48,520 nt of DNA from contig CAIVPF010000040.1 of assembly GCA_903907745.1 (NCBI GenBank), positions 1 through 48,520 of the forward strand. The letters run 5' to 3'. Within the stretch, counting starts at the first letter, position 1. Each line of letters opens with the position of its first letter. The position numbers were made by a program, and so were the translations under genes. The notes below the pieces were generated by a model that was not told the DNA's origin, made no database searches, and saw only the letters and a list, made by a program, of their open reading frames with translations. This DNA comes from an uncultured Cytophagaceae bacterium (GTDB lineage Bacteria; Bacteroidota; Bacteroidia; Cytophagales; Spirosomataceae). Positions 5,477 to 30,740 of the stretch are shown in pieces.

Positions 5477-6082
5477 ATGAAATCGCGCATTCTACATAAA
5501 GGAGCAGAATTATTCTTTCGTTACGGAGTGAAGACCGTGACGATGGATTCGATTGCGACGGATTTAGGGATTTCTAAAAAAACGATATATCAACATTTTC
5601 CTGACAAAGACTCCATCGTCTACGAGGTCGTTAAATCCTTCATTGAACAGGATTTAAAGAAGTGGGAAGAGTTAGACAAACTTTATCCAAACGTTATCGA
5701 GAAAATATTCAAGTCCTTCGAGATGACTAAGGATTTGTTTACTCAAATGAATCCTCGGCTTCTATATGAGATTCAAAAGTACTTCCCAAATGCGTATGAA
5801 CTTTTTTCAGATCATGGTGAAAAATGCATACATGAAAATCTAATCGCGGACTTTAAAAAAGGCGCACAAATTGGCTATTTCAGAAATGATATTGATTTTG
5901 AATTATTAGCCCGCTTACGGATGGCCGAAGTTAATTTGGTTTTCAATCCTGATTTTTATCCAAATAATAAATTACCCTTGTTTGAAACCCAACTCGTTCT
6001 CTTGGACATTTTCATGCGAGGAATTTTGACTGAAAATGGTTTAAAACTTTACACATCTTATCAAAACAAATTAACCCAATGA
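5477..6082 (+). CDS. TetR/AcrR family transcriptional regulator
   Basis: A 201-residue one-component repressor. The N-terminal helix-turn-helix is typical: V-T-M-D-S-I-A-T-D-L-G-I-S-K-K-T-I-Y-Q-H-F at about residues 20-40. The C-terminal two thirds form an all-helical ligand/dimer domain with no recognisable family signature. It is the first gene of an efflux operon and overlaps the TolC-like gene by 4 nt (ATGA). An inverted repeat lies in its own promoter, so the simplest model is autorepression of the whole operon, relieved by a pump substrate. The ligand is unknown. Confidence 0.9.
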   Translation: MKSRILHKGAELFFRYGVKTVTMDSIATDLGISKKTIYQHFPDKDSIVYEVVKSFIEQDLKKWEELDKLYPNVIEKIFKSFEMTKDLFTQMNPRLLYEIQKYFPNAYELFSDHGEKCIHENLIADFKKGAQIGYFRNDIDFELLARLRMAEVNLVFNPDFYPNNKLPLFETQLVLLDIFMRGILTENGLKLYTSYQNKLTQ

Positions 6083-27533: not shown

Positions 27534-27974
27534 ATGAAATTAGAAAGCAGTAAAAAAGATGCAAATAAGAATTTTTCTGAATGGACTTATGAGAATGAGG
27601 AGACTTGGAATAAAGAAGTAGTTCAAGAAAAAGTAGAGGAATACAACCGTTTGTTGGAGTATTGCCTAGAAATGGAAAGCAAGGTCGAGTCTTCTCTTCA
27701 AGGTTCCAAAGCAAAACTTAATTTAGCCGCTGATAACACGATTGATACTGGCAAAGTTTTACATCATGAAGTTAGTTTTATCGAAGATAACAAAACAATT
27801 ATATTCCTGATTTTGAATATTCTTTTCATCATTTTTATTTCGTATTTCTTTTTCAAACATCCGGAGGTTGATATTTTTCCTCAAGAAAATATGATTAAAA
27901 AGACGACAATTAGTGCGGCTCCAGATTCGTTAAAATCTGAGCCAATGCCGGCAGCAGATTCCTTAAAAAAATAA
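27534..27974 (+). CDS. Uncharacterised single-pass membrane protein
   Basis: 146 residues; I do not recognise a family. Residues 1-85 are hydrophilic, acidic and helical, with a likely short coiled coil (about 27-58). A membrane span covers about 88-107 (I-I-F-L-I-L-N-I-L-F-I-I-F-I). The C-terminal tail of about 38 residues contains two similar D-S-L-K segments. No signal peptide precedes it, so the N-terminus is probably cytoplasmic. It is preceded by a 246-bp AT-rich intergenic region without a convincing promoter, and converges with the channel-like gene. The context suggests, but does not show, a link to that cluster. Confidence 0.7.
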   Translation: MKLESSKKDANKNFSEWTYENEETWNKEVVQEKVEEYNRLLEYCLEMESKVESSLQGSKAKLNLAADNTIDTGKVLHHEVSFIEDNKTIIFLILNILFIIFISYFFFKHPEVDIFPQENMIKKTTISAAPDSLKSEPMPAADSLKK

Positions 27975-28043: not shown

Positions 28044-28094
28044 AAAAAGATGAATTAAAATAGACCATTGCTGGCTGTTTTAATTCATCTTTTT
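28044..28094. terminator. Long AT-rich bidirectional hairpin
   Basis: AAAAAGATGAATTAAAA (28044-28060) pairs perfectly with 28078-28094 (17 bp). The loop itself can form a short bulged stem, and A and T tracts flank it. It sits between the convergent genes ending at 27974 and 28104 and fits a two-way intrinsic terminator. Confidence 0.75.
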
Positions 28095-28103
28095 ATTTGT
28101 GTC

Positions 28104-29231
28104 TTAGGAGAAGTTAATCGACACGTAAATAAGAATCGTATTAATTAGGAGGAAAAAGGAGAACACGGTGAAGTTGATTATTTTGTTCATCTTTTTTTCA
28201 AATGAATCGATTACCCCGTCTTTATAAATGACTGCTGGCAAAATAGCTAACAGCGCCATCATGGTTAAAATGACGACGACACAAAAAGCATTAATAATTT
28301 CTGCTAAGGAATAATTGTTTGTGGCAGGAAGCTTGGAGGCTAGGATATAATTGGCACCAGCCGTGGTAAACAGGGCTCCAACGGTATACCTGCTCGGGTC
28401 TGCTGAAAAGGGCGCAATGAATGTCACAAATACAGCGACATAAAGGATTAAAAACAATTTTAAAATTACGGACAATCCCCCTTTATAAATACTGAACGCC
28501 ATTCTATATTGTGAAAAATCGATCTTATACCCCGAAGCAAATTTTGGGTTTCCCCTCGCCGATTTATAGGCATGCGACTTTTCGATTAATTTAATATTTT
28601 GATTTTTCTCATAGCCATTAATCATTACCCGAGAACTAACTTTTGAATCTATCGTATCAGGCTCAAAATATACTTGCGTTCGGTCTAGCCATTTATGTTC
28701 GATCGGTATAATTAAATCATGTTTGTCAATCGGATATAGGGACACATCAAAAAACTGCGTGTTTTTTGCTTTGACAAAATACTGGACGTATTCTACATTG
28801 TTTTTTGGATCCGTGTAATGATCGACGACATCGCATTTTAAAATATCGCCATTTATGATAGTGAAAGGCAATTCGTTTTTATGCGTATTGTCTTTGACCC
28901 CGAGCATGTCCACCTCATTGGGTTTCCACTTGAACCATAAATAAAATTCATAGCTCCAGCTTGATTCTTTGATATCTAAGTTTTCTATCCTCTCAAGATA
29001 GGTACCAATCACCACTTTTTTAGAACTCTCCGGTATGGTTAATGTTTCAGGCTTTGTCTTACCCGGATCCGGAGCTTTGGGATCCATCGTATTTTTCATA
29101 TTGGTGGAAACGACCGTTGCCATTTCCTTAATGGCGTAGGTAATTTTATAGGAAAACACGATTCCTGCCACTAGAATTACTGAAAATATCCCAATGAGGA
29201 TTAAATGAGAAGTTTCTTTTTTGTTAAACAT
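28104..29231 (-). CDS. Pentameric ligand-gated ion channel (Cys-loop-like) homologue
   Basis: 375 residues with pLGIC layout. An N-terminal membrane anchor (about 10-31) replaces a cleavable signal. An extracytoplasmic beta-rich domain (about 65-240) has the start V-V-I-G-T-Y-L-E-R-I-E-N-L-D, then Y-E-F-Y-L-W-F-K-W, and the Cys-loop counterpart F-D-V-S-L-Y-P-I-D-K-H-D-L (161-173) without the two cysteines, as in known bacterial members. Four C-terminal spans follow at about 252-274, 279-297, 309-336 and 350-373. M2 begins after D-P-S-R, the M2-M3 loop reads K-L-P-A-T-N-N-Y-S, and M4 ends V-F-S-F-F-L-L-I-N-T-I-L. It overlaps the upstream gene by one base (TAATG). Family call is from pattern memory; ligand and ion are unknown. 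Confidence 0.72.
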   Translation of the reverse strand: MFNKKETSHLILIGIFSVILVAGIVFSYKITYAIKEMATVVSTNMKNTMDPKAPDPGKTKPETLTIPESSKKVVIGTYLERIENLDIKESSWSYEFYLWFKWKPNEVDMLGVKDNTHKNELPFTIINGDILKCDVVDHYTDPKNNVEYVQYFVKAKNTQFFDVSLYPIDKHDLIIPIEHKWLDRTQVYFEPDTIDSKVSSRVMINGYEKNQNIKLIEKSHAYKSARGNPKFASGYKIDFSQYRMAFSIYKGGLSVILKLFLILYVAVFVTFIAPFSADPSRYTVGALFTTAGANYILASKLPATNNYSLAEIINAFCVVVILTMMALLAILPAVIYKDGVIDSFEKKMNKIINFTVFSFFLLINTILIYVSINFS

Positions 29232-29977
29232 TATTCTTCTAAGTCTGATTTAATTAATTCAATCAATTCTTCCCCTTTGTTTTTCAAGAGGGTCATTTGA
29301 TTCATATTGGTTGATTGATTCCCGTTTTCACTCGAAGTCCAATAGACTAAATCGTTTAAATTTGTTTTATCATAAGAGAACAAATCCTCGTCTTTGTCTA
29401 GGGGCTTGATGAAATATTTGTATTTTTTATTTTTTTCTACGTTCAACATTTGACTGAAAATGCCAGCCTTAATGACCTTGGAAGAAGCAATCCTAAATTG
29501 AATTAATATTTCTTCTTCCGTCTTATTGAGCGCATACACACTTTTTCGAATGTATAAATAATCATTTATTTTTTTGATGATTTCTTTGTTTTCAATGAGC
29601 CTGAACCCATCTGAAAATTGCAATTGGTTTAACGCGGCATCTACACCTTCAAAGGTCTCTAATTTTGTCATTAAACGAGTAAAATAATAAATGTCTTTTT
29701 GATTTGTAATTTTTTCTTGACTTAAAAGGTTGATTAGTTTATTTCCTACCTCTGTTTTTTCCGCACGCGCTTTAATACATTTTGACAAATTAATCCCGTC
29801 ATGCCCCAAATCACCGACTAATGAGCTTAAGTATTCCTTTTCTTTGGTTTTATCTAGGTAATTCTCTCGTAAATTTTCAGCGAGCGCTCCCAAAACGACA
29901 GCCATAAAAAGCATGAAAAAATGTAGAATGTGTTCTTTAAAATCAGAACCAGATTTGTGTGGCGGATGAATGTGCAT
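29231..29977 (-). CDS. Uncharacterised membrane-anchored protein, partner of the channel-like gene
   Basis: 248 residues. A His/Pro-rich start (M-H-I-H-P-P-H-K) leads into one membrane span (about 15-34, H-F-F-M-L-F-M-A-V-V-L-G-A-L-A-E-N), then a charged R-E-N-Y-L-D-K-T-K-E-K-E-Y-L. A mainly helical soluble domain of about 200 residues follows. The H-x-P... F-x-x-x-F-x-M-x-F-x-A-V-x-L-G-x-x-A-E-N-x-R-E-x pattern is one I associate with unnamed Bacteroidota proteins; I know no function. Its stop codon shares a base with the channel-like gene's start, so the two are translationally coupled. Confidence 0.75.
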   Translation of the reverse strand: MHIHPPHKSGSDFKEHILHFFMLFMAVVLGALAENLRENYLDKTKEKEYLSSLVGDLGHDGINLSKCIKARAEKTEVGNKLINLLSQEKITNQKDIYYFTRLMTKLETFEGVDAALNQLQFSDGFRLIENKEIIKKINDYLYIRKSVYALNKTEEEILIQFRIASSKVIKAGIFSQMLNVEKNKKYKYFIKPLDKDEDLFSYDKTNLNDLVYWTSSENGNQSTNMNQMTLLKNKGEELIELIKSDLEE

Positions 29978-30051: not shown

Positions 30052-30711
30052 TTAAAAATTTAAGATATGTACAACTTGTAGAAAATTACTTCCACTCTCA
30101 TCGTTTTTGCGGTTATCGATTTGGTTTAAATAGTTGATTTGTAATTCATACTTTTTACTAATCATGTTTCTAATCCCAAACAAAAACCTATTCTTTTCAA
30201 ATGTGGAATTAGTACCTCCAATTGCTAAGAAAAACTCATTTGAAAATTGAGCCTTTACATTTTTGGCGATATTGGTTTGCAAGCCAAACCGATACCTCAT
30301 TCGGTAATTAAATTTCTCTGTCGTAAAAAAATACCGCTGCTCTATTCTATAGCGGTTATCTAATACGAATGGTCCGAATTTTTGCGTTGTCGCGGCTTGT
30401 ATGGACTGCCGAAATTCGTCTGTAATGAGGGGCTTTACATAGTCACCTCCCTCCGTATATGTATTGTGTTTTCCTAAAAGAACGGATAGGACTAAATTGT
30501 TGTCAAATCGATAATTTGTCGTAAAATTTAATTCATTGTAATGGAAGTTCGAATAAAATTTAAGAGATCTTAATTGAACCTCTAATTGATAATTTATTTT
30601 CTTATCTGGATTTTTTCTAACATCAATTACATTCCAACTCCCTAATTCTTGTGCCTTTAATGGTATCGAAAAAATCAATATCAATACGATTAAACTAGGT
30701 TTAATTCTCAT
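30052..30711 (-). CDS. DUF2490 family outer-membrane beta-barrel protein
   Basis: 219 residues from ATG at 30711 (a GTG nine bases upstream is also possible). Signal peptide to about residue 20 (cut after KAQ). The rest is alternating beta strands with many aromatic ends, ending H-I-L-N-F, as in an outer-membrane barrel. DUF2490 features: N-terminal E-L-G-S-W-N, repeated Y-R-F/Y-R-M-R-Y-R-F strands and R-Y-R-I-E-Q-R-Y. Function unknown across the family. It is upstream of the anchored protein and the channel-like gene on the same strand (74-nt gap), so probably in one operon with them. Confidence 0.82.
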   Translation of the reverse strand: MRIKPSLIVLILIFSIPLKAQELGSWNVIDVRKNPDKKINYQLEVQLRSLKFYSNFHYNELNFTTNYRFDNNLVLSVLLGKHNTYTEGGDYVKPLITDEFRQSIQAATTQKFGPFVLDNRYRIEQRYFFTTEKFNYRMRYRFGLQTNIAKNVKAQFSNEFFLAIGGTNSTFEKNRFLFGIRNMISKKYELQINYLNQIDNRKNDESGSNFLQVVHILNF

Positions 30712-30740
30712 GGCACTCACAATTATTCGAAATGTATTTC

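Follow-up and report, generated by a model that had tools for sequence, protein, structure and literature searches.

A gene of 375 codons in an uncultured Cytophagaceae bacterium probably codes for a pentameric ligand-gated ion channel (pLGIC) subunit, a bacterial relative of nerve-receptor channels that keeps an uncleaved membrane anchor at its N-terminus. It lies on the minus strand at 28104-29231 of the window, by which we mean the whole stretch of 48,520 nucleotides that was analysed. Profile searches and a structure model support its membership of the channel family; from these and from comparison with relatives we infer the retention of the N-terminal helix, assembly into a pentamer, binding of a ligand, ion conduction and a role for the neighbouring genes.

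Reading frame and layout of the protein

The frame starts with an ATG at 29231, and the plus strand of the same interval contains many stop codons. As 18 relatives of 59-83% identity span most or all of it, the frame is real rather than a product of chance. A sequence-only reading had given the position 28104-29231 exactly, leaving the strand unstated, and the motifs that it quoted are all found in the translation: WFKW at residues 99-102, F161...Y166-P167-x-D169...L173, D278-P279-S280-R281 ahead of M2, and KLPATNNYS at 300-308. The Cys-loop pair is absent, as it had noted, the only cysteines being residues 133 and 317. It had further described a single beta-rich domain followed by four clustered helices, and this is what the AlphaFold model displays, with an N-terminal helix (5-48), a beta-rich part (71-249) and helices at 253-275, 279-300, 309-335 and 343-374. 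The features are as follows.

28104..29231, minus strand: channel gene, 375 aa, for a putative divergent pLGIC subunit with an N-terminal anchor (open reading frame, profile, fold)
29088..29219, minus strand: N-terminal helix, residues 5-48, its membrane part predicted at about 10-31 and the helix continuing outside the membrane (model, periodicity)
29022..29087, minus strand: Pro-rich linker, residues 49-70 (conservation)
28482..29021, minus strand: extracytoplasmic beta-sandwich domain of the ligand-binding type, residues 71-250 (model, fold alignment)
28725..28757, minus strand: Pro-loop, equivalent of the Cys-loop without Cys, residues 159-169, with Y166-P-x-D169 (alignment)
28407..28475, minus strand: M1, residues 253-275, the kink position being neither Pro nor Gly, and with K250, not Arg, before it
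28332..28397, minus strand: M2 pore helix, residues 279-300, with F288 as the 9-prime gate, followed by P302 in the M2-M3 loop
28227..28307, minus strand: M3, residues 309-335 (model)
28110..28205, minus strand: M4, residues 343-374 (model)

Homology and predicted fold

When the window protein was searched alone against Pfam and NCBIfam, 0 families were found at E<=1, the curated PF02931 and PF02932 included, and the best channel match of a single-sequence PDB search had an E-value of 1.1 (acetylcholine receptor beta, M1-M3). At E<=0.001, matches came from 10 of 99 related genomes: the window's own, a genome with a copy 83% identical, seven with long but distant matches (22-25%) and one with a partial match (32%). 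A scan of species genomes, from which 80 of 136 confirmed loci were kept, returned 18 close loci (59-83% identity) and 62 distant ones (21-26%); the congener copy at 83% identity is one record found in both searches (L011 = L002). The window protein, the 18 close relatives and 60 of the 62 distant ones make up an alignment of 79 proteins.

At E<=1, the profile of this alignment retrieved 224 distinct sequences of the PDB, and the best 60 of these 224 include a GLIC-glycine-receptor chimera (2.1e-19), GLIC mutants (from 1e-18) and wild-type GLIC (9.3e-18). GLIC is matched along its whole length, over both the binding and the membrane domain. At E<=0.01, the Pfam family Neur_chan_LBD (PF02931) is recognised in 56 of the 79 members (best 3.4e-8) and PF02932 in 2 of 79. 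A profile built from the 19 rows of the window protein and its close relatives retrieved no PDB channel, and the link by way of distant relatives of 19-26% identity is therefore essential.

The AlphaFold model computed from the 79-row alignment has a mean pLDDT of 86.5 and a pTM of 0.81, with pLDDT values of 91-94 across residues 11-40 and a drop to 59 at 51-60, so that the model does not fix how the anchor lies against the core. Foldseek places it with GLIC, GABA-A and glycine receptors of the PDB at E-values of about 1e-16. With a second structural aligner, Z reaches 21.9 for a glycine receptor (283 residues, 2.7 A) and 21.3-21.4 for GLIC mutants (277-280 residues, 2.5-2.6 A); overall, solved channels align with Z of 21-22 over 270-288 residues, covering residues 67-375. 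All 1000 chains of the Foldseek list score Z>=8; this aligner realigns that very list and is thus no independent search. The comparison with GLIC-type structures proposed in the sequence-only reading is thus strongly positive over residues 67-375, and it supports membership of the pLGIC family, with a predicted beta-sandwich and four-helix fold.

The likeness might instead stem from hydrophobic composition, the protein belonging to another family altogether. The failure of the Pfam search and the E-value of 1.1 speak for this view, as does a cross-match to DUF998, an unrelated membrane family, in 16 of the 79 relatives (best 4.2e-5). However, both domains match, the fold Z of 21.9 and the profile value near 1e-17 are high, and the Pro-loop, G-aromatic and L-P motifs are retained, so that we give this explanation hardly any credit.

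A distinct clade

In a quick tree of 89 proteins, built by maximum likelihood without bootstrap, the window protein and its 18 close relatives stand on one branch (SH-aLRT 100); the tool warned of long branches elsewhere in this tree. Between the window and L011, pN is 0.10 and pS 0.83 (saturated), which supports purifying selection on the channel gene; by region, pN is 0.215 in the N-terminal extension, 0.074 in the binding domain and 0.079 in the membrane domain. Against this, the close pair L011/L012 gives a dN/dS of 0.61, at a dS of only 0.07. Two metagenome bins contain two clade members each (L013 and L014 in one, L019 and L020 in the other), so that mixed pentamers may be possible in the clade.

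Conserved and altered residues

We compared the 19 clade members with the 60 ordinary Bacteroidota relatives, and both with the frequencies listed in Table 1 of a 2016 survey (PMC4795631). The Pro-loop (Pro 100%, Asp 93% in that table) is present as Y166-P167-I/V168-D169 in 19/19 clade members. The aromatic residue of strand beta-9 (W 71%, F 16%, Y 11%) is Y207 in all 19, whereas it is W207 in 60/60 ordinary relatives. The Pro of the M2-M3 loop (88%) is P302 and the 9-prime residue of M2 (Leu 75%, Phe 13%) is F288, both in 79/79 proteins. At the M2 0-prime position the table has Arg or Lys in 79%; R281 is invariant in the clade, but the M1-M2 loop has an indel; counted back from P302, R281 falls at 2-prime.

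The pre-M1 Arg, found in 94% of the superfamily according to the same table, is kept in 60/60 ordinary relatives, whereas residue 250 is Lys in 17/19 clade members and Arg in 2/19. The sequence-only reading had stated that the usual Arg is lacking; this holds for the window protein, but the residue is not simply missing, for Lys250 is a conservative replacement that keeps the charge, two members retain Arg, and the Arg is common but not universal in the superfamily. Residue 262, in the place of GLIC's M1 Pro204, is Ile or Val in 19/19 clade members and Gly in 60/60 ordinary relatives; the Pro that kinks M1 is not universal either (77%, with Gly at 5%, PMC4795631). These two departures from frequent family features, and possibly that at 0-prime, weigh against the channel reading.

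M2 is among the best-conserved stretches of the clade, with 17 of 25 positions invariant. G285, G292 and Y295 are kept, like F288, in 79/79, and the G-aromatic and L-P motifs are retained. A Trp is gained at position 181 throughout the clade (19/19), in loop B by our assignment. At the pore mouth, D298 (60/60 in ordinary relatives) is replaced by Ala or Ser in the clade, and Lys300 is gained (19/19). Loss of an acidic ring together with gain of a basic one suggests, from the alignment, a weaker preference for cations or a preference for anions.

The N-terminal helix and the linker

Before G76, the clade members have 72-77 residues, whereas the median of the 60 ordinary relatives is 33 (range 24-85); the N-ends of these relatives look mostly like signal peptides by eye and stop just ahead of the first strand. 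The best 19-residue hydropathy mean is 2.12-2.97 in the clade and 0.77-2.44 in the ordinary relatives, with overlapping ranges. The window and 16 other clade members start with ATG; in L024 and L025, for which the frame was cut by hand at base 5998, the frame is open but the anchor requires a TTG start, the first ATG lying after the helix.

Over residues 10-48, conservation follows a helical period of 98 degrees per residue, with a strength that 0/2000 shuffles reach, and at this angle the phases of residues 10-29 and 30-48 are 2 degrees apart. The period is present in each sub-clade separately (0/1000 shuffles each). The same test is positive in M3 and M4 (0/400 and 1/400 shuffles), and it gives no signal in nine 39-residue stretches (49-248) and in M1-M2, where 188 to 370 of 400 shuffles reach the value. 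A conserved face that stays in phase across the expected cut region, residues 23-34, speaks for a helix that is left intact and lies packed against protein.

The helix is followed by the linker motif T48-M-D-P-K-A-P-D-P-G-K-T59, invariant at 7 of its 12 positions among the 19 members. This motif varies less than the helix does (0.38 bits, compared with 1.5), a hint that it docks onto the binding domain. The N-terminal anchor claimed in the sequence-only reading is thus backed by the length of the extension, by a higher mean hydrophobicity and by the unbroken helical period. From the extension and the period we infer that the anchor helix is retained, which would give five spans per subunit.

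A possibly mobile gene neighbourhood

The channel gene belongs to a small island of four putative envelope genes, which comprises the following features in addition to it.

30052..30720, minus strand: DUF2490 family gene, first of a putative operon (PF10677, E 5.6e-28)
29231..29977, minus strand: stalk gene, 248 aa, directly upstream of the channel gene, with an N-terminal membrane-type helix leading into a long helical part
28044..28094, no strand: 20-nt inverted repeat, 95% complementary and AT-rich, between the convergent 146-aa and channel genes
27534..27974, plus strand: gene convergent to that of the channel, whose 146-aa product has a single hydrophobic stretch

The DUF2490, stalk and channel genes are co-directional, and the 146-aa gene faces them. 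The stop codon of the stalk gene and the ATG of the channel gene share one base (TAATG), which makes joint translation probable. The DUF2490 protein we take to be an outer-membrane barrel. The inverted repeat lies where a terminator might be expected, yet the terminator scan did not flag it; counts in the promoter and terminator scans were at chance level.

Among the 19 clade loci, 8 have both a stalk and a DUF2490 gene, 3 the stalk only, 3 DUF2490 only and 5 neither, in views limited by contig ends upstream (L014, L020, L021) or downstream (L023-L025); in L015-L018, the channel gene is flanked by other genes. The gene order takes at least three forms, and the 146-aa gene is recognised in only 2/19 clade loci. 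No relative of the stalk or DUF2490 protein was found at the 79 ordinary pLGIC loci, with flanks of about 1.5-6 kb and some loci from the same species. Within the genus (38 genomes), the channel gene occurs in 2 genomes, and the same 2 also have the 146-aa gene and a closely related stalk gene (63% or more). The specificity of the stalk and DUF2490 genes is weakened, since weaker stalk relatives bring the stalk count to 21/38 and DUF2490 is present in 28/38 (24 over the cut-off).

In all nine congener loci examined, out of 37 other genomes, the island is absent from the site, and the two flanking genes directly adjoin, with 5-14 bases of overlap between their alignments; one of these nine congeners carries the island on another contig. 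This absence, together with the varied orders and places, gives the island the appearance of an accessory unit with differing insertion sites, and the four genes seem to have moved between species. Neither a transposase nor a repeat was identified as its vehicle. Carriage by phage was set aside, a tblastn against a phage collection having given no match at E<=1e-5. Plasmid carriage was also discarded; nine plasmid records contain relatives of 21-27% identity (7 Azospirillum, 2 Streptomyces), and the three that were inspected have an ordinary signal-like start by eye, so the anchor is not a feature of these three. Neither did a defence system seem plausible: in PADLOC at E<=0.1, the channel, DUF2490 and 146-aa proteins have no match, and that of the stalk (a restriction enzyme, E 0.0044) was treated as chance.

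The stalk protein has only sub-cut-off matches in the family search. Its model, built from 11 rows, has a best pLDDT of 82.9 and a pTM of 0.72, one of five models reaching only 61.5; it consists of a helix at 12-85 followed by further long helices, and in Foldseek its best match has an E-value of 0.09, with none at E<=0.001. Residues 39-85 have a periodic conserved face (0/500 shuffles), the periodicity being weak at 12-38 (76/500) and 12-85 (37/500). We had considered the stalk as sole partner of the N-terminal helix of the channel; this is weakened by the persistence of the conserved face in the eight members without a visible stalk gene (1/1000 shuffles), one of which, L014, has only 550 bases upstream in view.

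Other pLGIC loci

Several associations were seen at loci outside the clade. In three genomes, an ordinary pLGIC gene is followed immediately downstream by one for a flavin amine oxidase (L061 = L005, one record; L110, 3046-4410; L111, 2931-4292). The PF01593 match of the oxidase has an E-value of 6.7e-67 in L005 and 1.8e-65 in L110, where a Tat-signal match is also present. This adjacency is a possible hint at amine ligands for ordinary pLGICs. An amine ligand for the anchored clade was set aside, as the oxidase gene was not seen beside its members. In two distant lineages, a UPF0114 gene (PF03350, E 3.9e-36 and 1.2e-31) is directly upstream of the pLGIC gene (L134, 2859-3926, from Azospirillum; L106, 1388-1933), and a joint mention of UPF0114 and 'ligand-gated ion channel' was not found in the open-licence literature. 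At 33 of 79 ordinary loci the neighbour gene, mostly divergent, encodes a hydrophobic protein of about 147 aa (for example L062, 5379-5861) without a confident family (best DUF996, E 0.039). L035, L057, L068 and L089 each contain paired adjacent pLGIC-type frames, and mixed pentamers could form there. L010 (19-1875) encodes a 618-aa protein with N-terminal TPR repeats and a pLGIC-like part, and L136 (2384-3424) a pLGIC-like protein of a Streptomyces plasmid, annotated as hypothetical.

Proposed mechanism and alternatives

We propose that the protein is a pLGIC subunit of the inner membrane, with its N-terminus in the cytoplasm. The helix of residues 5-48 or so would be an uncleaved signal anchor that crosses the membrane and runs on, still helical, in the periplasm, where the Pro-rich linker would connect the helix with the binding domain at its first strand. 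Five copies arranged around their M2 helices would amount to 25 membrane spans. A small periplasmic solute would bind at the subunit interfaces and cause the Pro-loop to move against the M2-M3 loop, and the pore would open at the ring of 9-prime Phe residues. The conserved face of the N-terminal helix would pack along its own pentamer, which is more likely, or against the stalk protein, and this packing may brace or tune gating.

This scheme presupposes that the N-terminal stretch is not simply a signal peptide removed by cleavage in vivo; if it were, residues from about 30 to 70 would be a tail and the subunit would have four spans. Ordinary Bacteroidota relatives do have cleavable-looking signals at this end, and a loose small-x-small cleavage-type site is found within residues 23-34 of 16/19 clade members; this loose rule discriminates poorly, since it also finds a site in 60/60 ordinary relatives. 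However, nothing would keep a removed peptide in phase with the remainder over residues 10-48, and the nearly constant length of the extension, the strong conservation of linker motif 48-59 and the pLDDT of 91-94 at residues 11-40 also argue against cleavage, which we regard as unlikely. Alternatively, a protein with the pLGIC fold might not conduct at all and act as a periplasmic sensor or scaffold, signalling through its island partners. The clade has indeed lost the pre-M1 Arg (17/19), the M1 Gly and the acidic residue 298 (19/19 each), and the partner genes are co-inherited within the genus. An unused pore would nevertheless be expected to drift, whereas 17 of 25 M2 positions are invariant and the 9-prime Phe is present in 19/19, and we hold this scenario to be improbable as well.

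If the protein is an anchored channel, as we favour, its extra helix might serve as a built-in auxiliary subunit within a mobile, envelope-spanning module, in which the DUF2490 barrel would admit a solute, the stalk and the N-terminal helix would couple it to the channel of the inner membrane, and the channel would convert it into an ion flux. We offer this wider scheme as a speculation that has perhaps a modest chance of being right.

Comparison with known channels

The protein shares with GLIC, the proton-gated pLGIC of Gloeobacter, and other prokaryotic pLGICs the binding domain, the Pro-loop (Y/FPxD), the four-helix channel domain, the M2-M3 Pro and the lack of a Cys pair. It differs from them in its apparently retained N-terminal helix, its pre-M1 Lys, the lack of an M1 Pro and the Phe at 9-prime, a position occupied by Ile in GLIC. 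With ordinary Bacteroidota pLGICs (Cytophaga, Raineya, Chryseolinea; L029-L090), it is homologous over residues 65-373 or so at 19-26% identity, with 16 invariant columns that include W99, P167, D169, E178, G206, Y222, K258, F288, Y295 and L301-P302; these relatives differ by shorter N-ends and by W207, R250, G262 and D298 in 60/60. The sequence-only reading considered such channels little studied in Bacteroidota. This has to be adjusted, as one from Cytophaga hutchinsonii has been on record since a 2004 survey (PMC549065), which describes its bacterial pLGICs as composed of a signal peptide, a binding domain and four spans, with further domains intervening in some of them.

Extra N-terminal material before the binding domain also exists in DeCLIC and in the fusions of pLGICs with PBP-I, Cache and MCP-N. 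By their description, the additions are two beta-rich lobes in DeCLIC (PMC9897478) and sensor domains in the fusions (PMC549065), whereas here they would be a membrane-type helix and a linker. As for the stalk, a paralog in the same genome (31% identity) has a weak match to DUF6090 (E 0.009, below cut-off); in contrast, the stalk itself has its sub-cut-off matches with other families, and a structural best of E 0.09. We did not find such an N-terminal anchor described in the pLGIC literature under open licence, which is weak evidence of absence, and a membrane anchor on a pLGIC is apparently new.

A passage of the 2016 survey states that pLGICs of unicellular organisms were without any known biological role (PMC4795631); the genes that accompany the anchored channel, in varied orders and places, are candidate members of a pathway. 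The outer helix M4 has been discussed as a lipid sensor (PMC9116227), and from a subunit that has five spans by nature one would learn how such a receptor can be tuned by one more membrane helix. Finally, the changes from Arg to Lys and from Pro or Gly to Ile would be natural tests of residues deemed central to gating.
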